Virus record (IMG/VR): IMGVR_UViG_3300045282_000083
Coordinates: 1-64,000 of that record
DNA: 64,000 nt
Origin: a virus
Reading direction: 5' to 3' (one strand)
Within the stretch, counting starts at the first letter, position 1, and the number at the start of each line of letters is the position of its first letter. The translations under genes and the position numbers were made by a program. The notes under the pieces are model-generated. The model was not told where the DNA came from. It ran no database searches and saw only the letters and a list, made by a program, of their open reading frames with translations. Below are positions 1 through 51,695 of this stretch, in pieces.

Positions 1-740
1 AGGCTGATTGGACCGCCCAGCTGGGCTGGAACCCGCCTCAGTGGGATAACTCCTGGCAGCAGCAGTTGACTACGGATGCTCAGGGCAATATTGTTCCTGT
101 TCCTGGCGCTCCTGCTGACCTGGTGCACAAGTATCAAGCATACACCCAGTACCGCCAGACCCAGGCGGCAAAGATGCTTGATAATCCTGGCAAGTACATG
201 GAGCCGTACATTCGGCACATTGCTCAGGAAGTCGCCGCCCAACATGCTCAGTATAACGTCGGTCAGTACAAAGATCAACAGGAAGCCAACCAATTTATTG
301 AGAAACACAAGGATTGGCTGTTTGAGCAAGACGACAAGGGCGCGATCAAAACGACTCCAGTGCTCAATCCGTCCACTGGCCGGTATGAGGAGCAGCGCCA
401 GCTGGGTCAATACGGCCGGCTGTTTCTTAATGCTCTGACGGACGCCGCCAATAATGGCGTTCCGGTGAATCTTCAGCCGACGTATGCCATTCAGGCCGTC
501 CAGAACGCATATCTTGCTTCCGATGCGTACAGACAATCCGTCTTGGCCTCCGCCCAGCCCGCTCCGCAGGGCAGTGCAAAGGACCAAGCCAACCAGAAAT
601 TCACAGACAGGGCTAACCCTGCCCAGCCGCCTGCCCAGCCTAGCGGCAATGCCAAACCCGCCCCGGTGAAAGTCACTCGTGAAAATCTTGACAAGGTGAT
701 GTTGGAACGCTTTCGTCAAGAAGGTATTACCAACATCTAA
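1..740 (+). CDS. Probable scaffold or minor head protein, 3' part only
   Basis: The frame is open to the left edge, so only the C-terminal 246 residues are visible. They are helical in character and rich in Gln and Ala. A Pro/Ala/Gln linker follows (about the last 60 residues), and the end is a charged helix containing RENLDKVMLERF. The gene stops at TAA 738-740, 17 nt before the capsid gene, which has its own AAGGGG ribosome site. Position directly upstream of the major capsid gene, helical content and a basic C-terminal tail are what a scaffolding protein shows. No protease motif is visible in this part. The assignment is from context, not from a recognised motif; a minor head protein is the main alternative. 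Confidence 0.55.
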   Translation, partial: ADWTAQLGWNPPQWDNSWQQQLTTDAQGNIVPVPGAPADLVHKYQAYTQYRQTQAAKMLDNPGKYMEPYIRHIAQEVAAQHAQYNVGQYKDQQEANQFIEKHKDWLFEQDDKGAIKTTPVLNPSTGRYEEQRQLGQYGRLFLNALTDAANNGVPVNLQPTYAIQAVQNAYLASDAYRQSVLASAQPAPQGSAKDQANQKFTDRANPAQPPAQPSGNAKPAPVKVTRENLDKVMLERFRQEGITNI

Positions 741-3313: not shown

Positions 3314-3799
3314 ATGAATACAACAACCTCGGCTCTCGTGAAAACTTGTGGAAAATGCAAACAGACCAAGGAGTTTTCATTTTTCTACAGCAAAAGTGGT
3401 CCGCTGCGTTACGAAGGACGGCCAAGCGGATATAGTTCCAATTGCAAAGCATGCATTTCGGAGCTACACAAAACCGACAGGGTCAAGGAAAGGCGATTAG
3501 AGATCAGGAAGCTCGGTGGCGCCAGGAATAGTGAGCTAAAACGAGAATATGGAATAACTCTCAACGATTATTATTCCATGTTAGCTCTGCAAGGTGGCGC
3601 CTGTAGGATTTGTAAAAGAAAAGATAGTGGGCACATAACAAGGAAAAACCTCTGTGTGGACCACGATCACAGGACTGGGCGAGTTCGCGGGTTGCTATGC
3701 AACCGGTGCAATCACGCCGTTGGTCTATTCAATGACAATCCCGACATATGTTTGTCGGCGGCAGAATATCTAACCAATAAACTGCCGGAATTGACGTAA
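3314..3799 (+). CDS. HNH endonuclease, recombination endonuclease VII type (copy 2)
   Basis: 161 residues, same architecture as the gene at 1955: N-terminal zinc pairs (CGKCKQTKEF, CKAC), a basic middle, the YGITLNDYYSML helix, then CRIC, LCVDHDHRTGRVRGLLC and NRC. The DHDH form keeps the catalytic His. Sequence is clearly more AT-rich than its neighbours, a sign of transfer. No Shine-Dalgarno site precedes the ATG at 3314, in agreement with the leaderless promoter. The stop lies inside a perfect 7-bp inverted repeat. Probably a homing endonuclease inserted between virion genes; the next gene has lost a normal start codon. Confidence 0.83.
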   Translation: MNTTTSALVKTCGKCKQTKEFSFFYSKSGPLRYEGRPSGYSSNCKACISELHKTDRVKERRLEIRKLGGARNSELKREYGITLNDYYSMLALQGGACRICKRKDSGHITRKNLCVDHDHRTGRVRGLLCNRCNHAVGLFNDNPDICLSAAEYLTNKLPELT

Positions 3800-24689: not shown

Positions 24690-24720
24690 TGTGCAAGTGG
24701 CCGAAAAAGCCACTTGCACA
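24690..24720 (+). repeat. Perfect 12-bp inverted repeat before HNH gene 3
   Basis: TGTGCAAGTGGC (24690-24701) and GCCACTTGCACA (24709-24720) around a 7-nt loop, ending 5 nt before the ATG. Read-through mRNA would bury the translation start region; mRNA from the local promoter would lack part of the left arm. No T run, so not a simple terminator. Confidence 0.65.
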
Positions 24721-24725
24721 GTAAC

Positions 24726-25316
24726 ATGAAAAAAGCAGTTAACACTTGTGGGCATCCCGACAGGCCGCACTGCGGACGTGGCATGTGTCGAAGCTGCTAC
24801 ACCGTACAATGGCATAAGGCCCATCCAGAATTAATCAGAAAGTTAAAATACAATGATTATCGAAGGATGCGCAAGCGGCTTTCCAAAGACGCCGACAAAT
24901 TGAAAGCGTTCAAGGAAAAGGGTCGCCTCCAATCAGCCGCGTGGAGAGAAAATAATAAGGAGAAATACTTGGAGTGCGCCCGCAAGCTTCAGAATAAGCT
25001 TTACCACAATCCTGACGGTAAATTAAAGCGTAAAATTCGTGGGTACAAACTTAAACAGTTTGGGATGACCCACGAAGATTATGAAGCAATGCTGGCTTCT
25101 CAAAACGGCGTCTGTGCCACCTGCAAGAAGCCAGAAAAAGTTAGGCAAGGCTATGGCTTAAAACACTTGGCCATTGATCACGACCATCAGACTGGCAGAG
25201 TGAGAGGCTTGCTTTGCCAAAATTGCAATCTGATGATTGGCCACAGCCACGACAGTATAGAATTGTTGCAAGCCGCCATCGACTATCTGAAAAGCAAATG
25301 TCATGAGCAGCCTTAA
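24726..25316 (+). CDS. HNH endonuclease, recombination endonuclease VII type (copy 3)
   Basis: 196 residues from ATG 24726. N-terminal zinc segment with CGHPDRPHCGRGMCRSCY, then a long basic helical linker (rich in Lys/Arg, about 30-110), then the Endo VII core: FGMTHEDYEAMLASQNGVCATC, AIDHDHQTGRVRGLLC, NCN. Longest of the three copies because of the linker. Lys/Asn-rich and more AT-rich than neighbours, a sign of recent transfer. Overlaps the next virion gene by 14 nt. Homing endonuclease likely. Confidence 0.83.
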   Translation: MKKAVNTCGHPDRPHCGRGMCRSCYTVQWHKAHPELIRKLKYNDYRRMRKRLSKDADKLKAFKEKGRLQSAAWRENNKEKYLECARKLQNKLYHNPDGKLKRKIRGYKLKQFGMTHEDYEAMLASQNGVCATCKKPEKVRQGYGLKHLAIDHDHQTGRVRGLLCQNCNLMIGHSHDSIELLQAAIDYLKSKCHEQP

Positions 25317-38403: not shown

Positions 38404-38536
38404 CGCATTTCTGAACGGCCTTGTGAATAAGACCGTGGATTCTGCTCCAACAACTCCACCTCCTCGGACCACCTGTCAGGATGGAGTATTCGCCAAATGC
38501 CACTTGGGATAGGTCTTCAATTTCTTCGTTGCTCAT
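38051..38536 (-). CDS. Small leftward protein running into the ejection-protein gene
   Basis: Start ATG 38536 has GGAG 6 nt before it and overlaps the upstream gene's stop. The first 45 residues (SNEEIEDLSQVAFGEYSILTGG, IHGLIHKAVQKCVN) read as real protein. The remaining frame to 38051 lies antisense to the last 353 nt of the internal-protein gene and looks like chance open frame. Formal length 161 residues. Either a tail-to-tail overlap or a gene that lost its normal stop. Confidence 0.45.
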   Translation of the reverse strand: MSNEEIEDLSQVAFGEYSILTGGPRRWSCWSRIHGLIHKAVQKCVNDPVESGTSETAAAPSEIIEESDLDEPLYPQNEISLDHVELPEYNPESLICAQRLRQHQIDVLRSSNSLLYQALSSLGPQASQQSISRALRANLEAHSQRLEAALLSNPQAVNEGL

Positions 38537-38679
38537 TGCTGCTCCATGATTAGTTTCTTGGCCCTGACGAATGCCAGGTAGTGCTTGCCTGGTATTGACC
38601 AATCATTTCTATCATTATACAGATGTTTAAGGAAGTCAGCACAAGCCATCGCTAACTTCGAGATTTCTTTGTCGGTCAT
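38533..38679 (-). CDS. Small hypothetical protein (48 residues)
   Basis: MTDKEISKLAMACADFLKHL, then YNDRNDWSIPGKHYLAFVRAKKLIMEQQ. ATGA overlaps on both sides. Pattern of a helical protein; unknown function. Confidence 0.5.
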   Translation of the reverse strand: MTDKEISKLAMACADFLKHLYNDRNDWSIPGKHYLAFVRAKKLIMEQQ

Positions 38680-39074: not shown

Positions 39075-39242
39075 TCACTCTCCAAATAACGGGTTAAGAA
39101 ATTGAAACATTTTCCTGTACGTATCGTTGCACTTGATCCAGGCCACGGCGTCAAAGGTTATTGCTGTTCGCTGCCAACTTGGCCCATACAGCACATCGCA
39201 AAGGCTGTAAGCAGCATGTTCTGCTAGAGTATATTTACTCAA
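39075..39242 (-). CDS. Small hypothetical protein, TTG start (55 residues)
   Basis: TTG start at 39242 is preceded by GAGG at 6 nt and lies in the last codons of the gene before it. Sequence SKYTLAEHAAYSLCDVLYGPSWQRTAITF (in parts) and ends FLNPLFGE. Likely translated by coupling. Function unknown. Confidence 0.45.
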   Translation of the reverse strand: MSKYTLAEHAAYSLCDVLYGPSWQRTAITFDAVAWIKCNDTYRKMFQFLNPLFGE

Positions 39243-39864
39243 TTGTCACCTCATAAAAGCCTTCGGAAAGCGGCACGGCCCACGTCGGTGGTGCCACTCT
39301 GATTTCAAGCGTGCCGGTTTCGGTTGTAGTCGCCCCCTCACCGATAACAAACTCCCCGCCATTAATTCTTCCCATTAGTGTTCCGTATCCAATAAGACCG
39401 CCAAAGGTGGATGGCGCACCTTTTGGTCCAGTAAGATACTGTCCAGGAGTCTGCGGGAAGTGATCAATGGTTCCGGTTGCACGAATGTTTACCTTTCGAT
39501 ACTGCTTTCCTATAGACTTCCAGCCATCCTCCAGCCGCAGCTTGACAGTCTTTTTGCCGGGCTGTACGTGGAATTTCACTATCTGGTTAAACGGGATGTC
39601 AGCCTTGCCCAACACGCTCACCCCAGATAGCTTAACATCCTTCATTAGGCCCTTGAGATCACCACCTGGCGTGGTGATGACCACTGGATAGCCAATCAGC
39701 TTCTTGTTCTCCACGACGGATTTATCCACCTTCATCTCCGCAATGTCCATCAAGGGCACTTTCAACTCCCCGTACTTCGTGGCTAGCGTGAATACGGCCT
39801 CCTTCTCCACTTGGAACATAAGTGAACTACCGTCCAGCAACATAAGACAAATCGTTATCAGCAT
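39235..39864 (-). CDS. YGxLxVPL-type beta protein
   Basis: 209 residues from ATG 39864, which follows AAAAGGAGAAAGCC. N-terminus has MLLDGSSLMF then AVFTLATKYGELKVPLMDIAEMKV, a repeating beta motif I associate with small Sm-like or PilZ-like domains in environmental bacteria, especially Planctomycetes. Middle part is VVITTPGGDLKGLMKDVKLSG; the end is strand-rich. Own promoter upstream. Function unknown, possibly a host-derived surface or assembly protein. Confidence 0.5.
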   Translation of the reverse strand: MLITICLMLLDGSSLMFQVEKEAVFTLATKYGELKVPLMDIAEMKVDKSVVENKKLIGYPVVITTPGGDLKGLMKDVKLSGVSVLGKADIPFNQIVKFHVQPGKKTVKLRLEDGWKSIGKQYRKVNIRATGTIDHFPQTPGQYLTGPKGAPSTFGGLIGYGTLMGRINGGEFVIGEGATTTETGTLEIRVAPPTWAVPLSEGFYEVTIE

Positions 39865-40570
39865 GGCTTTCTCCTTTTGGCGATGGAAAAAGCCTAGCAC
39901 ATATTTTCCGTCTTGTCAAGTTCTTCATGAGAATTTTCTGGACCATGTTGGCAGTCCAAGGTTTGCCCGACCGTGAAGACCAGCCACGTTCGTTAAGCTT
40001 CTCGGCGATGCGATAGTGGGGCAGCAGGTTCATGGCGATAATCTGCTCCAATATGGCCATTTCCTTCTCGTCAGTCACTAGAATCCCGCCTTGCCACTTG
40101 GTGCCATACGGAGCTATGCCACCACAAACGCCAGTTTGTGCCTTCTTGGCCTCCAGAGCCGACTTGGTTCGCTCTCGGATCATGCCCCGTTCCAACTCAG
40201 CAATAGCTGAGAAGATATGGAACATTGCTTTTCCGTAAGGGGAGGACATATCAATGTGCTCCCGGAGTGAGATAAGGTGAATCTTGTTCTTGCACCAATT
40301 GTCTATTGTGACCACTGCATCGCACATGGACCGGAACAAGCGGTCGATTTTCACGACCACTACCGTGTCATCGGGGCGTAGCATGGCAGTCATCTTGCTA
40401 CCAGCTGGGCGTTCGTCAAGCGCTATGCTGCCGCTCACACCGTCGTCAGTGTGCCATTGGAACCTGCCCCCAGTGGCGCTGTGTTGCATCCAATCGTCCA
40501 GCTGTTTGTTTTGGGCCGCGACCCCAAGGTCTTGCTTGTCAGTAGAGACTCGGACATAGAGGTGCAACAT
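39827..40570 (-). CDS. Serine recombinase (resolvase/invertase family)
   Basis: 247 residues from ATG 40570 (after GGAG and AGGG); the frame opens further up. Catalytic N-terminal domain: LYVRVSTDKQDLGVAAQNKQ with the nucleophile Ser in VRVST, VVVVKIDRLFRS with the conserved Arg, and AIAELERGMIRERTKSAL, the E-helix. C-terminal HTH: LLPHYRIAEKLNERGWSSRSG. The size fits small serine recombinases with a short DNA-binding end. It could resolve multimers, invert a segment or integrate; no matching inverted or direct target sites were seen nearby. Ends over the next promoter. Confidence 0.8.
   Translation of the reverse strand: MLHLYVRVSTDKQDLGVAAQNKQLDDWMQHSATGGRFQWHTDDGVSGSIALDERPAGSKMTAMLRPDDTVVVVKIDRLFRSMCDAVVTIDNWCKNKIHLISLREHIDMSSPYGKAMFHIFSAIAELERGMIRERTKSALEAKKAQTGVCGGIAPYGTKWQGGILVTDEKEMAILEQIIAMNLLPHYRIAEKLNERGWSSRSGKPWTANMVQKILMKNLTRRKICARLFPSPKGESHADNDLSYVAGR
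39891..39919 (-). promoter_or_regulatory. Extended -10 promoter, leftward
   Basis: On the minus strand: TTGACA, 17-nt spacer ending TGC, TAGGCT. Same TGC-TA-GCT shape as the promoters at 49399 and 51668. Drives the gene starting at 39864 and lies inside the end of the recombinase gene. Confidence 0.55.
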
Positions 40571-40776
40571 ATCCCTAGCTCCAAGAGTTCTTGTGCGTGC
40601 ATCCAAACCCAATCGCCATCCACTGGCACACTCCGCATTAGTTTGCCACAAATACATACGGATAAGTCATGGTTCTTGCTGGCGTCCCAACTCTCACCAA
40701 ATCGCCGTCGCATGTGTTCGATACCTGCTGTGCAGGGCATTGGTTCTCCAGTATAGCCAAAATTTTGGCGTGCCAT
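40435..40776 (-). CDS. Small Cys-containing hypothetical protein
   Basis: 113 residues. MARQNFGYTGEPMPCTAGIEHM, then DLSVCICGKLMRSVPVDGDWVWMHAQE, a possible small zinc-binding module (C...H...C-x-C). Its last 45 residues overlap the recombinase start and resemble shadow sequence. The start lies inside the previous gene with no strong ribosome site. Moderate support. Confidence 0.4.
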   Translation of the reverse strand: MARQNFGYTGEPMPCTAGIEHMRRRFGESWDASKNHDLSVCICGKLMRSVPVDGDWVWMHAQELLELGICCTSMSESLLTSKTLGSRPKTNSWTIGCNTAPLGAGSNGTLTTV

Positions 40777-41284: not shown

Positions 41285-41432
41285 TTAATGCCTCCGTGAT
41301 TGCCTTGTTGAGTCGGTCGCGCCACCTGTTTCGCAAGCGAATATCAGGGATGCTGGACCGGGTTGTCGTTCGGTAAAGAATACGCCATAGCGTCTGTACG
41401 GTATTTTCAACCAAATAGTCCACGTCGATCAT
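41265..41432 (-). CDS. Small hypothetical protein (55 residues)
   Basis: ATG 41432 after AGGAGG. MIDVDYLVENTVQTLWRILY then basic helix RLRNRWRDRLNKAITEAL. One of five consecutive 50-60 residue genes, each with a strong ribosome site and overlapping ends. Confidence 0.55.
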   Translation of the reverse strand: MIDVDYLVENTVQTLWRILYRTTTRSSIPDIRLRNRWRDRLNKAITEALNDRIRD

Positions 41433-41587
41433 AATGGCCTCCTGATACAATCCTCTGCTCTGGATACCATTTTTCTCCAAACGAGACTTCTGTTTGCAGG
41501 CTGCCAAAGCGAGGCTGTTCCCCAAACCACATTAATCATCTCTATCAACGCCGCATACGCCGCGTTGTAGATGTCAGATTCTGTCAT
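41429..41587 (-). CDS. Small hypothetical protein (52 residues)
   Basis: ATG 41587 after GAGAGG. MTESDIYNAAYAALIEMINVV then SLVWRKMVSRAEDCIRRPL. Similar in layout to its neighbours at 41265, 41584 and 41763 (short helices, aromatic residues, basic end), perhaps a small family. Confidence 0.5.
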   Translation of the reverse strand: MTESDIYNAAYAALIEMINVVWGTASLWQPANRSLVWRKMVSRAEDCIRRPL

Positions 41588-41766
41588 AATTGCCTCTCGA
41601 TTAGTTGTCTACAACGACATTCAAGTCTTTCGTATAGATTGAGTCTGGAGATTCCGCCTAAATCCATATACCAATTCGCCCATCCATTGTGGGTAAGTCC
41701 CACCAGCTGGCTCAGTGCATCTTCACAAACCTTTGATATCCACTTGGCCTGTTCGTATTCGTTCAT
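41584..41766 (-). CDS. Small hypothetical protein (60 residues)
   Basis: MNEYEQAKWISKVCEDALSQ, then GWANWYMDLGGISRLNLYERLE and CRQLIERQL. GAGGGA site. Shares the RLIE/QLIER-Q-L type ending with the gene before it. Confidence 0.55.
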   Translation of the reverse strand: MNEYEQAKWISKVCEDALSQLVGLTHNGWANWYMDLGGISRLNLYERLECRCRQLIERQL

Positions 41767-41921
41767 AATTGTCCCTCAATTAGACGTTTGGCGCGATCCC
41801 TGATTGCGTACCAAGCAGTATTTATGTCTCTCGCGGTCCAGTCAACCGTTGGCCCATGCAGGGTGATCAGTAGATAGTTGGCCGCTTCACCAGCAACAGC
41901 TAGGAGTTGTCCGTGTCCCAT
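41763..41921 (-). CDS. Small hypothetical protein (52 residues)
   Basis: MGHGQLLAVAGEAANYLLIT, then TVDWTARDINTAWYAIRDRAKRLIEGQL. Ends with RLIEGQL, close to RQLIERQL of the next gene, so a tandem duplication is likely. Start inside the 3' end of the ATP-grasp gene. Confidence 0.5.
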   Translation of the reverse strand: MGHGQLLAVAGEAANYLLITLHGPTVDWTARDINTAWYAIRDRAKRLIEGQL

Positions 41922-42657
41922 TATCCCACCTTATGCAATGTTCTGCGTACTTATCGACTCCGCCAGGAGTAATCCCTGGCCCAGTGTTGACTTCTAATAC
42001 AAATAATCCGCCCCACTTGGAACGAACTATATCCACAGCCCCAAAGTCCAGCCCAAGAGACTCGATAGCCTTCTTGGCCAGATGGTCTAGCCAGGAGAAC
42101 GGGGATTCGCATTCCACTAGCACCCAGCCCCTATTTTCGCTCCAAATGTTTGGGTCGTTCTCCACGCCCCGCTTGCGTCGTTTTCTCTGCACGCGAATGA
42201 CTTCGCCACGGAAAACGTGGACACGGTATTCCTCAAACTTCCGTATCCATTGGATGGAATAATCGTACCATTGGGCGTGATAAGGCGGACTTTCTCCTTT
42301 TGACACAATGATCGGCCCGTCACTTGCCGCGTGCCGAGTCATTTTTCTGAACACACGCTTATAATCGGTCACTTCGTCCCACGGATTCCAGATGTTAAGC
42401 TTAGGGATTCTGACACCTTTCTCCTCCATGGTAATCAGCGCCCCCAGCTTATGGGAAGCCAACTTGACAGCTTCCCAGCTGTTCAGGGATGTTCCTTGGC
42501 AAGGATACTGACTGCCATAACGGACAAACCGTGCGCCAGGACGGCCACGTGCCCGTCCGCGTGGCTTGCAGAACGATCCTTGCAATTCTGTAATCTTTGC
42601 CGCCAAAGCCCTAGCTGACGTGGCAGAGCAATTGGCATAGAGCACGAAGTCAATCAT
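41887..42657 (-). CDS. ATP-grasp ligase (RimK-like)
   Basis: 256 residues. The ATP-grasp fold is shown by KLGALITMEEKGVRIPK, the lysine segment DGPIIVSKGE, the strand pair EEYRVHVFRGEVIRVQRK, and the metal-binding C-terminus LDFGAVDIVRS then LFVLEVNTGPGITPGG with its E-x-N. Enzymes of this fold join a carboxylate to an amine through an acyl phosphate. Encoded in the same leftward operon as the amidoligase (45370) and glutamine amidotransferase (44381), six genes downstream of the latter. Substrate is likely a peptide or protein end; unknown. Confidence 0.8.
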   Translation of the reverse strand: MIDFVLYANCSATSARALAAKITELQGSFCKPRGRARGRPGARFVRYGSQYPCQGTSLNSWEAVKLASHKLGALITMEEKGVRIPKLNIWNPWDEVTDYKRVFRKMTRHAASDGPIIVSKGESPPYHAQWYDYSIQWIRKFEEYRVHVFRGEVIRVQRKRRKRGVENDPNIWSENRGWVLVECESPFSWLDHLAKKAIESLGLDFGAVDIVRSKWGGLFVLEVNTGPGITPGGVDKYAEHCIRWDNGTRTTPSCCW

Positions 42658-42818
42658 CTAAGAACCACGTAATTAGTGTCATCTTGAACGTAGAAGCAGC
42701 CGGTGTCTAATAGAATCTTTTGGATTCTACCGTGAAAAACGTCATAACTGTCGTCAAAATTGCAGCCCATTCGGGTCATTTTGCTCATAATACCGCAAAC
42801 ATAGCATAATTCATCCAT
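42654..42818 (-). CDS. Small Cys protein (54 residues)
   Basis: ATG 42818 after GGAGGTG. MDELCYVCGIMSKMTRMGCN, then DDSYDVFHGRIQKILLDTGC. A CxxC pair plus two later Cys might bind zinc. TGATG overlap with the ATP-grasp start suggests coupled translation. Confidence 0.5.
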   Translation of the reverse strand: MDELCYVCGIMSKMTRMGCNFDDSYDVFHGRIQKILLDTGCFYVQDDTNYVVLR

Positions 42819-42876
42819 ACTCACCTCCCGATTAGTTGCGGCGGGCCAAAGTCATCCATGACGCCGGCCCAGCACA

Positions 42877-43032
42877 TCAAACCGCAGAGACAACCTCAAG
42901 CTGGTCGTTGTAGCGGCACCCTTGGTCAAGCAGAGTGCGCCTGGCTCTCGTCATCCACGTGAACCATTGGGGAACAGCGTACACTCCGAGAAGGTTTTCC
43001 AGGGAGTCAGCAGCGTATCTGGCCAGACACAT
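42877..43032 (-). CDS. Small hypothetical protein (51 residues)
   Basis: ATG 43032 after AAGGAG. MCLARYAADSLENLLGVYAV then basic ARRTLLDQGCRYNDQLEVVS. Unknown. A 58-nt gap with a short CGGCG/CGCCG stem follows. Confidence 0.5.
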   Translation of the reverse strand: MCLARYAADSLENLLGVYAVPQWFTWMTRARRTLLDQGCRYNDQLEVVSAV

Positions 43033-43034
43033 AA

Positions 43035-43619
43035 TCACTCCTTGGCATGACGTTCGATGATTTTCTCAAGGACTTCAATGTCCTCCGCCGAGACCTTGTC
43101 AGGAACCGTATCTGTTGACCCCAGCACAACTTCCAATTCCTCCATTCTACGATCTACTTCCTCCGGTGGCAACTCATTTCCGGTGTCCCAGCAGTACATG
43201 CAGGTCGGTTCTTCATCGGGCAAGGGTGGCCAGTCCACAAGCAAATGGTCGCACTTGCCGCAGGTATATTTGTCGCTAACGAGCATTGTCACCCCTTTTT
43301 TGAGTAACGCCTTTATTAGGCGCTTGGATTCCTTCTTGGAATGTCCATCGCTACGCAGGATGGACAGCATGTGTTGTTTCAACTCCCTATCCTTCACGTA
43401 TTTCTTCTGGAGTCCACTTTTGCATATGCCGCACAGACAATTCGCGGCATGGTGTTGTCGCTTGCCCGTAGAGGCGATAGTTTTCGTAGCGTGACTCACT
43501 TCTAATCCTCCGGGTTCTGTCTGCGAAAACGAACCGTTCCAAGCGGCGACGGACTCTTCTTCTCCTGGCTGCAATTTCCGCCGCCGAAAGAAGTAGCTCG
43601 AAAACTTCTTGGACCACAT
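43035..43619 (-). CDS. Zinc-ribbon protein
   Basis: 194 residues from ATG 43619 after GGAGG. Cys pairs at CLCGICKSG (about 62), CGKCDHLLV (about 130) and CMYCWDTG (about 148), with a basic helix between (KQHMLSILRSDGHSKKESKRLIKAL). The two later CxxC pairs form a zinc ribbon. DNA/RNA or protein binding likely. Sits between the amidoligase genes and the ATP-grasp gene. Confidence 0.6.
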   Translation of the reverse strand: MWSKKFSSYFFRRRKLQPGEEESVAAWNGSFSQTEPGGLEVSHATKTIASTGKRQHHAANCLCGICKSGLQKKYVKDRELKQHMLSILRSDGHSKKESKRLIKALLKKGVTMLVSDKYTCGKCDHLLVDWPPLPDEEPTCMYCWDTGNELPPEEVDRRMEELEVVLGSTDTVPDKVSAEDIEVLEKIIERHAKE

Positions 43620-43909
43620 TAAACCTCCAAGGGAACCATGTATTCCCATAAATAGCTGTTCTTGTCAAAGGCACACCGATAGGAATGCCTCCTCTTGCCC
43701 CATTTGCAGAACTTCATGCCAGCGACAACTTTGACAATGGCCGCTCCGTCTTTGAAGCCGTTCCAAAATCCTTTAATTAGCCTACCTTGGCGAACGCTGT
43801 ATATCTTTTTGGTTCGCCTCTTGCCGCCACGGTCTAGCCGGATTGCTTTGTTGTCCACCAGCGCCAGTAACCTTACTTCCTTGTAAGGAGCCAACTCATT
43901 GAGCTTCAT
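43619..43909 (-). CDS. Basic hypothetical protein
   Basis: 96 residues, very basic: NELAPYKEVRLLALVDNKAI, LDRGGKRRTKKIYSVRQGRLIKGFWNGF, FCKWGKRRHSYRCAF. SH3-like beta pattern in the first half. Overlaps the next start by TAATG. Confidence 0.55.
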   Translation of the reverse strand: MKLNELAPYKEVRLLALVDNKAIRLDRGGKRRTKKIYSVRQGRLIKGFWNGFKDGAAIVKVVAGMKFCKWGKRRHSYRCAFDKNSYLWEYMVPLEV

Positions 43910-43917
43910 AACACTCC

Positions 43918-44310
43918 TTAGAAAGGAACCTCAGGCTGCACGTTCCCACCTCTGGCAATGACGTTCTCCACATCTCTCCGGAACATGGTGAACGTATTGT
44001 CGCTGTCAATCGCTTCCCTGTCGGTGATTTCGTCCGCCTCCTTCTCGGGTTTCAGCGTTACGCCAATGTACACGCCAAACCGGAAAGCGCTGGCTGGCAG
44101 GAGATAGCCATTCTCAGGAATGCCTTTCATGGCATAAACCAGGGCGTGAGTTTTGCCATTGTACCTTGACCGGCCAAGCCATTTGCATTCGATTTTGGTT
44201 CCTTTCCGCAGACTGACCGCCCTACTCCGTTGGTCAACGACCGTCGTGTCTTTGATTACGGTAGCGTGTACGGTCCTTCCACGCTTGATGTCTTTGTCGT
44301 GCAATTGCAT
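43918..44310 (-). CDS. Hypothetical protein in amidoligase operon
   Basis: 130 residues, AGGAGG site. Beta-type N-terminus (GRTVHATVIKDTTVVDQRSRAV, GTKIECKWLGRSRYNGKTHALVY) and an acidic middle (KPEKEADEITDREAIDSDN). Not recognised. Preceded by a hairpin leader. Confidence 0.55.
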   Translation of the reverse strand: MQLHDKDIKRGRTVHATVIKDTTVVDQRSRAVSLRKGTKIECKWLGRSRYNGKTHALVYAMKGIPENGYLLPASAFRFGVYIGVTLKPEKEADEITDREAIDSDNTFTMFRRDVENVIARGGNVQPEVPF

Positions 44311-44348
44311 ATTATCCTCCTATGTCCGCTGGGTTAGGCCATCGCCGT

Positions 44349-44369
44349 CCGGCTGGTGGGCACAGCCGG
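44349..44369 (-). promoter_or_regulatory. Hairpin leader between glutamine amidotransferase and next gene
   Basis: Minus strand: CCGGCTG and CAGCCGG form 7 bp around loop TGCCCAC, in the 70-nt gap. One of a family of intergenic hairpins whose loop contains CCCA. No T run. Confidence 0.45.
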
Positions 44370-44380
44370 TCAGCGAGGGT

Positions 44381-45379
44381 CTACATCACGAGTTTAGCGA
44401 ATTCGGCAGACACTTCAAGCAGGGTTGGCTCACTGATTTTGTCCTTGATCTGCTGAAGAGTGCCACGAAACGTGTCCGCAGACAGTGCATTAGCCTTATT
44501 CCGAGCCGCAATGACCTTTTCCCGAAGTATCCTCCGGTTAAGTGCCCGTGCGGTGGCGTTGTCGCAAAACAACTCGCCTTGCAAATCGTCCCTTGGTCCG
44601 TCATCGTTGGCGGGCAATTCATCGGCCTGACACCCTAATTCCTCTACGTCGTTTTTGCCGTAGTTGGTGGCCGTTTGGGACTTTTTTGTTTCCTGTTCGT
44701 AATACTCCTTCCAGGAAGCCGCACAGTGCGCGTCACGCAAGTAGGTGCTGCGGTCCTCGCAGCCTACTGCGCGGTGCACGTTGTTGTAATACGTGGCATG
44801 GCTGACACGGCCATCATAGCCGGTGTAAATCTTGGTCCCCCAGGGCTTGTACGTGTCGTTGGAGTACCAAATGCCGTCGTCCCATGTGCCCTGCTTCTCA
44901 TTGATGATAGTGGTTTTGCCTTGACCATCCATGATGACCAGCTTGGAGTGGCCGATGTAGTCAGAGATAAACTCCCTGATAGCGGCGTTGCGGTGAAAAT
45001 TCCTGGGCAGAATCTTCAGCATCGTGTCCACGAATACCCGCGTATCGCTCTTGTTCTTGTCATTGGCATACGCACATCGGCCAATGATGCCGTTGTGGGC
45101 CAAGGCCAACTGGCCATGCTGAGGAATTAGGAATGGATGGCAGTTGTCCAAATCCGTGGTGCCATGCGTGGCGATACGGGCGTGGAAGACCACGGGCACA
45201 CGGAGATTGCGGAACCAACTCCAATTCTGGCGGAACTCCTCCGCTTTCATGCCCTTCATGATCTGAAGCTTGCCCTCCGCTGGCCACATGGCTCCCCAGC
45301 CGTCCTTGTTCCTGTCCATGGCAGCCGCAAGATGATTCTTGGGGATATTGCCCTCCGGGGAGTAAATGATTATGCACAT
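44381..45379 (-). CDS. Class II glutamine amidotransferase
   Basis: 332 residues, AGGAGG site. Starts MCIIIYSPEG: Cys2 becomes the N-terminal nucleophile after Met removal. Conserved pocket residues: RIATHGTTDLDNCHPF and LALAHNGIIG. The N-terminal 190 residues form the glutaminase (Ntn hydrolase) domain; the C-terminal 140 are helical, acidic and of unknown role. It releases ammonia from glutamine, here presumably for the amidoligase encoded just before it (10-nt overlap). The domain is not fused to an asparagine synthetase or GlmS part. Confidence 0.85.
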   Translation of the reverse strand: MCIIIYSPEGNIPKNHLAAAMDRNKDGWGAMWPAEGKLQIMKGMKAEEFRQNWSWFRNLRVPVVFHARIATHGTTDLDNCHPFLIPQHGQLALAHNGIIGRCAYANDKNKSDTRVFVDTMLKILPRNFHRNAAIREFISDYIGHSKLVIMDGQGKTTIINEKQGTWDDGIWYSNDTYKPWGTKIYTGYDGRVSHATYYNNVHRAVGCEDRSTYLRDAHCAASWKEYYEQETKKSQTATNYGKNDVEELGCQADELPANDDGPRDDLQGELFCDNATARALNRRILREKVIAARNKANALSADTFRGTLQQIKDKISEPTLLEVSAEFAKLVM

Positions 45380-46230
45380 GACGGAACCTCCTGGTCTTCG
45401 AGATGCTGGAGCACACGCAACTCCAAAAGATACTTCGTGAGATTAGGATACGTGGTGGAATGGCGACCGACGTAGTTCGCAAAAGCCGAGTCAAGCTTAC
45501 CTGGCTTGTGCAGCTTGGTGGAGATAACTTCTTTGTAATCCACGTTCCGCGTGAACTCTACCGCCGCAATCACTGCTTCGATGGCTTTCCTGACACGGTC
45601 CTCCCGCATGTTTCCCCGGAAGATGCGAACTTCCAGGGTATTGGCGGTGATGTTTGTAGCAATGTAGCGAGTGTCCTGGTAGCCAATCGTGTGAAAGGTG
45701 GCTGCCTTCACGTCCACCTGCCGTGCCCATTGCCCGCATGTTTCCTTGTCTCGCTGGGACAGCCGTTGGAATAACGCCCCGTTGATAAGCTTGGCGAACC
45801 AATACAGGTGCTTCCTACGCAATTGCCTCCTGGCAATCTGGCCGGCATTGATATTCCTGCGAATTTGGATACCTTCGAAAGCTGGCCAGGAAACGTGGAT
45901 ATGCAATCCACATCGGCCGGACGTATGGGAAGTATACCCCATCTTCCGTAGCTCGTCAATAAGCTTGAAGAACGCCCCAACAGGTGTTTTCTTGGGGCGT
46001 TGCTGAAGCCACAGCTTTCGGGAGATTGGTTGAGTAACCAACTCCCAGCCATATGAACTCAAGCTGCCATCGTGCTTGGCAAAGCACCACTTGGGTTGCT
46101 TGAGAACCCCTAGACCGTCACATTTCCCTTGGCTGTCCTTAGCTTCCACTTCTAGCTCAATCCCCAGCCAATACGAATCTTTCCCAAAGAAACGTATGCT
46201 GGGTTTGTAGTCATGTTCATGCTGACGCAT
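45370..46230 (-). CDS. Amidoligase (glutamine synthetase / GCS fold)
   Basis: 286 residues from ATG 46230 after GAGGG; the frame opens 105 nt earlier. Motifs of the amidoligase family: WLGIELEVEA (metal Glu residues), KHDGSLSSYGWELVTQP, GLHIHVS, and NTLEVRIFRGN near the end. These enzymes form an amide between a carboxylate and an amine at the cost of ATP. First gene of the operon after a strong extended -10 promoter and a hairpin leader. Together with the following glutaminase and the ATP-grasp ligase it predicts a small peptide-bond-forming pathway. Confidence 0.85.
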   Translation of the reverse strand: MRQHEHDYKPSIRFFGKDSYWLGIELEVEAKDSQGKCDGLGVLKQPKWCFAKHDGSLSSYGWELVTQPISRKLWLQQRPKKTPVGAFFKLIDELRKMGYTSHTSGRCGLHIHVSWPAFEGIQIRRNINAGQIARRQLRRKHLYWFAKLINGALFQRLSQRDKETCGQWARQVDVKAATFHTIGYQDTRYIATNITANTLEVRIFRGNMREDRVRKAIEAVIAAVEFTRNVDYKEVISTKLHKPGKLDSAFANYVGRHSTTYPNLTKYLLELRVLQHLEDQEVPSCA

Positions 46231-46277
46231 GACTAAACCCTCGCAACATAGGCCAGCCAACCCGGCCACAGGCGAGG

Positions 46278-46293
46278 GGCTGGTGGGACAGCC
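46278..46293 (-). promoter_or_regulatory. Hairpin leader of the amidoligase operon
   Basis: Minus strand: GGCTG-TCCCA-CCAGCC stem-loop in the leader between promoter and amidoligase start, again with CCCA in the loop. Then a GGCC-rich segment and GAGGG ribosome site. Confidence 0.45.
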
Positions 46294-46323
46294 GCTCACA
46301 TGGGGTCGAAATCGAACCAAACA

Positions 46324-46351
46324 AACATACCACAAAAACGCGGGAAGTCAA
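46324..46351 (-). promoter_or_regulatory. Promoter of the amidoligase operon
   Basis: Minus strand: TTGACT, 16-nt spacer, TATGTT, with TGG before the -10. The spacer and downstream bases (TTTTGTGGTATGTTTGTT) are shared with the promoter at 47960, so both belong to one regulated class. Confidence 0.65.
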
Positions 46352-47959: not shown

Positions 47960-47987
47960 AACATACCACAAAATCCGCGAAAGTCAA
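47960..47987 (-). promoter_or_regulatory. Leftward promoter, same class as 46324
   Basis: Minus strand: TTGACT, 16 nt, TATGTT with TGG before it, and TTTTGTGGTATGTTTGTT in common with the amidoligase promoter. Overlaps the stop of the gene upstream. Confidence 0.65.
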
Positions 47988-49398: not shown

Positions 49399-49427
49399 AG
49401 CATAGCACGCTTTCTTGGTTTTGTCAA
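49399..49427 (-). promoter_or_regulatory. Extended -10 promoter, leftward
   Basis: Minus strand: TTGACA, 17-nt spacer ending TGC, TATGCT. Nearly the same -10 region as at 51668 (GTGCTATGCTT). Confidence 0.65.
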
Positions 49428-51667: not shown

Positions 51668-51695
51668 AGCATAGCACACTTTTTTTGCCTGTCAA
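51668..51695 (-). promoter_or_regulatory. Extended -10 promoter at the head of the early block
   Basis: Minus strand: TTGACA, 16-nt spacer ending TGC, TATGCT. Follows a 580-nt non-coding region. Downstream leader contains GGCCGAA-A-TTCGGCC, a perfect 7-bp palindrome. Confidence 0.65.

Follow-up and report, generated by a model that had tools for sequence, protein, structure and literature searches.

The locus considered here raises the question of what a phage might gain from three dissimilar enzymes encoded nearly side by side, and whether those enzymes belong together at all. It lies in a window that covers bases 1-64000 of a virus record 67,750 bases long. On the minus strand, a promoter-like site is followed in order by genes encoding an amidoligase, a glutamine amidotransferase, five small ORFs, and an ATP-grasp ligase (Table 1). 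A preliminary description of the sequence had the three enzyme ORFs at 45370, 44381, and 41887 on that strand, and there they are. The 10-nt overlap that it reported between the amidoligase and the amidotransferase is real as well (45370-45379), and a zinc-ribbon-like protein and small proteins do lie between the enzymes, as it said.

Table 1. Features of the locus, in the direction of transcription (positions in the window)
Feature	Position	Strand	Basis
Promoter-like site, TTGACT-16-TATGTT, extended -10 TG	46324..46351	-	sigma-70-like, 9/12 to consensus
Amidoligase_2-type ligase, short form, 286 aa	45370..46230	-	PF12224, phrog_16683, motifs, model
Class II glutamine amidotransferase, N-terminal nucleophile Cys2, own tail of ~130 aa	44381..45379	-	PF13230, residues, profile
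Small protein, 130 aa, no family match; unconserved in related modules	43918..44310	-	
Small protein, 96 aa, no family match; unconserved in related modules	43619..43909	-	
Zinc-ribbon-like protein, 204 aa, three CxxC-type motifs (by eye)	43035..43649	-	no family match
Short ORF, 53 aa, 4-nt overlap with zinc-ribbon gene	42877..43038	-	
Short ORF, 56 aa, 4-nt overlap with start of ATP-grasp gene	42654..42824	-	
RimK-like ATP-grasp ligase, 256 aa	41887..42657	-	phrog_2599, AlphaFold2, Foldseek, residues

The set had also been placed behind one strong promoter. A sigma-70-like site with an extended -10 does precede the genes, but since it agrees with the consensus at 9 of 12 positions, "strong" overstates the case. 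Sites of the same shape (TTGAC..., TATGnT, extended -10) occur 5 times in the whole window, where 0.24 would be expected. Four of them, all on the minus strand, are spread from 46.3 to 51.7 kb (46324-46351, 47960-47987, 49399-49427, and 51668-51695) and fall in the early region.

The first enzyme belongs to the Amidoligase_2 family. Its ORF reaches upstream to a TTG at 46335, but the ATG at 46230 is more likely to be the start. In the family search that the preliminary description had proposed for the three enzymes, it matched PF12224 (E 2.6e-4) with 21.4 bits, slightly below the curated gathering cut-off of 22, and phrog_16683 with an E of 1.5e-16. The 15 relatives aligned with it match PF12224 as well (the best at 8e-54), and thus all 16 members of the alignment do. 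Along with the profile match, the protein carries the GxExE, DGS, HxH, and ExR motifs: alignment to 41 amidoligases shows that it keeps G23xE25xE27xE29, D54-G55-S56, E63, and H110xH112, and also R138, Y189, N193, and E200xR202. Structure modelling drew on sequences from the window and IMG/VR only, and the model of this protein is of modest confidence (pLDDT 68). Foldseek returned only two matches below 0.001, both YbdK-type ligases, followed by Dop, glutamine synthetase, and glutamate-cysteine ligase, so far as the model goes the fold expected of the Amidoligase family. The protein begins 22 residues ahead of the catalytic motif, without the usual N-terminal zinc-ribbon extension.

The second enzyme exceeds the cut-off of PF13230 (E 2.4e-6), and its profile matches the structures of GlmS and PurF. 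It has what is expected of a class II amidotransferase: a cysteine directly after the initial methionine, a conserved arginine, an Asn-Gly pair, and an aspartate. Compared with 20 other amidotransferases, it keeps C2, R68, G73, H81, N96, and G97, of which C2, R68, H81, N96, and G97 are invariant in the 21 sequences; the window has D112, as do all 18 sequences of the first alignment. Loss of catalytic residues had been named as an observation that would count against the proposed pathway, and in the amidoligase and the amidotransferase every active-site position examined is intact.

With the ATP-grasp, the same question has a divided answer. The protein matches phrog_2599 (E 1.1e-30), annotated as 'ribosomal protein S6 glutaminyl transferase', and a search with its family profile retrieves RimK structures (4e-12). 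The AlphaFold2 model (pLDDT 85) is nearest to RimK, LysX/ArgX, Ddl, and graspetide macrocyclases, the best Foldseek match being RimK (E 9.4e-12). In comparison with 41 ATP-grasps, K70 (the linker lysine), R104 (the basic residue of strand 2), E143xR145, K159, the acidic D209, and E222xN224 are invariant, but the glycine-rich loop is degenerate, reading RHAASDGPI where nearly all relatives have GHSGxGI, and for this reason the activity of the enzyme is less certain. Proteins of the R2K clade of ATP-grasps lack the linker lysine and have instead a second Lys/Arg in the loop (PMC4431377). Membership in that clade was considered and rejected: K70 is present and is invariant in 42 sequences, and the Pfam R2K matches are below cut-off. 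The nearest relative, 38% identical over 251 residues and with a similarly degenerate loop, is encoded on a Planctomycetaceae MAG contig and may hint at the host group of the phage. It is a lone copy, with neither amidoligase nor amidotransferase in reach on a contig that is short (6.3 kb). A gene resembling, by eye, a TraG/VirD4-type ATPase is near it (L101, 1238-2032).

The resemblance to RimK brings up the possibility that the product is a modified protein. The target to which the ATP-grasp adds amino acids would be a ribosomal or regulatory protein of the host, or else a virion protein, and the amidoligase and amidotransferase would cap or trim the tag. The top structural match is in fact RimK bound to ribosomal protein S6, phrog_2599 is named after the modification of S6, related phage peptide ligases have been proposed to act on host proteins, and the amidoligase model resembles Dop, an enzyme that handles Pup. 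However, the fold of the ATP-grasp matches equally well LysX, Ddl, and MdnC, ligases that work on small molecules or carriers, and no conserved small tag or carrier protein was found beside the module. We regard protein modification as unlikely, but it is a live rival to the cell-wall target considered below.

The company kept by related ATP-grasps bears on whether the three enzymes belong together. The amidoligase or the ATP-grasp, used as a single-protein query against IMG/VR, found no relatives, and no close DNA relatives of the window were found among phage records. The alignments of the amidoligase and the amidotransferase had diverged too far to serve for scanning. A scan of IMG/VR led by the ATP-grasp yielded 449 relatives, and 80 loci were retained. 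With six duplicates and known phages left aside, the 50 loci with at least 4.5 kb of upstream sequence were counted. Both the amidoligase and the amidotransferase lie within a few kb of the ATP-grasp in 48 of these 50, a sample chosen by the ATP-grasp and including near-identical contigs, hence not 50 independent events. Since the same set recurs in dozens of unrelated phages, the trio is not a product of chance, and on this point the preliminary description is supported. Judged by gene neighbourhoods, the three enzymes form a conserved module and belong together.

Perhaps, nonetheless, the genes were acquired independently and merely lie side by side. This would accord with phages that have an amidoligase and an amidotransferase but whose records nowhere encode an ATP-grasp: MEP401, ctgrD200, ctUh1700, PV036454, and Marvin. 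Because of these five, the trio cannot be considered obligatory, and the occurrence of one gene without the others, named beforehand as evidence against the pathway, does in part obtain, although it leaves the trio in nearly all the loci found through the ATP-grasp. Independent acquisition was already disfavoured by that count, and with genes that overlap or adjoin one another and are consistently ordered across unrelated phages, it is most improbable.

The loci fall into two architectures. The extended form adds a COOH-NH2 ligase to the three enzymes; it often includes a further gene as well, and in some cases a gamma-glutamyl cyclotransferase. The compact form has the three enzymes. Twelve of the 50 loci are compact, with neither COOH-NH2 ligase nor cyclotransferase, and 11 of the 12 keep the window's order of amidoligase, amidotransferase, and ATP-grasp. 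In phiEco32 and LUZ24 the module is of the extended form, and its core genes follow one another as in the window (amidoligase, amidotransferase, small genes, ATP-grasp), in agreement with the earlier surmise that phiEco32-like phages carry similar genes. The window's own record has no match to PF14395 (COOH-NH2_lig), in a search that does find it in phiEco32, LUZ24, KZY1, and ECO319P1, nor to PF06094 (gamma-glutamyl cyclotransferase), which five relatives and nine controls do match. Since the 12 compact relatives also do without both, the COOH-NH2 ligase is treated as defining only the full form. In many extended cassettes the amidotransferase precedes the COOH-NH2 ligase and is not beside the amidoligase, which weakens the idea of a fixed partnership for ammonia and leaves the pairing unproven. 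On a Desulfuromonadaceae MAG contig (L103, 9004-10071), a single ORF matches the profiles of both the cyclotransferase and the amidotransferase, possibly a fusion within the module.

The cyclotransferase, though near the module in only 9 of the 50 loci, is pertinent to a different product: a soluble peptide-like metabolite or a modified nucleotide, with neither wall nor protein modified. In the fuller cassettes, that enzyme would fit a scheme in which a gamma-glutamyl group protects an intermediate and is later released, and small amides are commonly built by GS-like and ATP-grasp ligases. However, the window's genome has no cyclotransferase, and there is no direct evidence for such a product. 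We consider this second live rival quite unlikely.

The small genes between the enzymes had been suspected of belonging to the pathway. This found no support: no homologues of the window's intervening proteins were found among the ORFs of the related phage loci searched, and the position is occupied by different genes from lineage to lineage. They are probably local insertions. PADLOC, which searches for anti-phage defence families, gave no match. Around the module are minus-strand ORFs of about 50-60 aa (41429-41921, 38533-38679, and 39075-39242) that are weakly similar to one another, an apparent paralogous family (profile E of about 0.005 for the added members).

The zinc-ribbon-like protein admits a more specific idea. 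In those compact-set amidoligases that were examined, the N-terminal region carries at least two CxxC motifs. Perhaps the window shows a fused architecture that has been split, the amidoligase having lost its zinc-ribbon part while the separate protein, which ends in Glu, would act in trans, either as a scaffold or as a carrier resembling LysW; on that carrier the LysX/RimK-like ATP-grasp, whose loop is unusual, would assemble the product. Zinc ribbons being generic, the pattern is only suggestive, and we think the idea very unlikely to be correct.

As to the rest of the genome, the record begins and ends with the same 146 bases apart from 3 mismatches (window 1-146 and L020 7606-7751), although no end repeat is noted for it. 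Because of this overlap, the contig of 67.75 kb probably represents a phage genome that is nearly complete and either closed or terminally redundant. Downstream of the module is a gene for a serine recombinase (39827-40657, minus strand; PF00239, E 7.7e-34), from which the phage may be temperate or DNA-inverting. Small ORFs resembling HNH endonucleases, identified by eye from their translations, are scattered among the structural genes (1910-2422, 3314-3799, and 24714-25316, plus strand).

How the module might work can be pictured from the chemistry of the families to which its enzymes belong. It would be expressed from the replication-side (minus-strand) gene region. The amidotransferase would split glutamine and hand the ammonia to the amidoligase, its translationally coupled neighbour, which would phosphorylate a carboxylate in the style of glutamine synthetase and so form an amide. 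The RimK-like ATP-grasp would then proceed through an acyl-phosphate to attach an amino acid, probably one resembling glutamate, to that molecule. We infer that the steps run in this order: ammonia, amide, further amine. Among possible targets, we favour the peptide side chain of the host's cell-wall precursor, which would be altered early in infection, and the benefit to the phage may be, for example, to hinder superinfection; target and benefit are both hypotheses from the literature. This account, from ammonia to amide to an amino acid added to a cell-wall precursor, is the one we prefer, while putting its chances a little short of even.

PMC5498523, PMC6256558, and PMC11945000 call the phage cassette a 'peptidoglycan modification' module, citing Iyer 2009 and Hardies 2013; as they relate it, the module was predicted in 2009, protection against superinfection has been proposed as its role, and action on peptidoglycan is a hypothesis there too. 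The work of Iyer and colleagues on amidoligases, to which the preliminary description referred, is real, as these citing papers attest. No substrate or product of the module has been demonstrated in the literature found on the cassette. Since related phages carry the module and the literature already has a name for it, the locus is not a discovery: it is the compact, three-enzyme form of a known phage module. The value of that form is that it reduces the problem to its core, which would be easier to reconstitute than a seven-gene cassette. Also, the module is widespread in phages, and wide sampling separates the core from the accessory parts.

The closest described counterpart is the cassette of RIO-1-like, phiEco32-like, and LUZ24-like podoviruses. 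As described in PMC5498523 and PMC11945000, its three enzymes are the same, form one cluster with the gene order and orientation seen in the window, and lie outside the block of structural genes; the window differs in lacking PF14395, PF06094, and the N-terminal extension of the amidoligase, and in its changed glycine-rich loop. The compact IMG/VR phages (L008-L011, L047, L050, L078, L083, and others) have, like the window, only the three enzymes in the same order, and their amidotransferases are 31-32% identical to the window's. Unlike the window's, however, their amidoligases are about 520 aa in length, with two CxxC motifs ahead of the catalytic domain, and in several of these phages the amidotransferase and ATP-grasp genes abut or overlap. 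Methylophilales phages MEP401 and MEP402 and mycobacteriophage Marvin have, as in the window, adjacent amidoligase and amidotransferase genes, in MEP401 with an identical 10-nt overlap, but MEP401 and Marvin have no ATP-grasp. Beyond phages, the ATP-grasp of the window shares its predicted fold and its main catalytic residues with the RimK/LysX ligases, while being 17-18% identical to RimK over the model.
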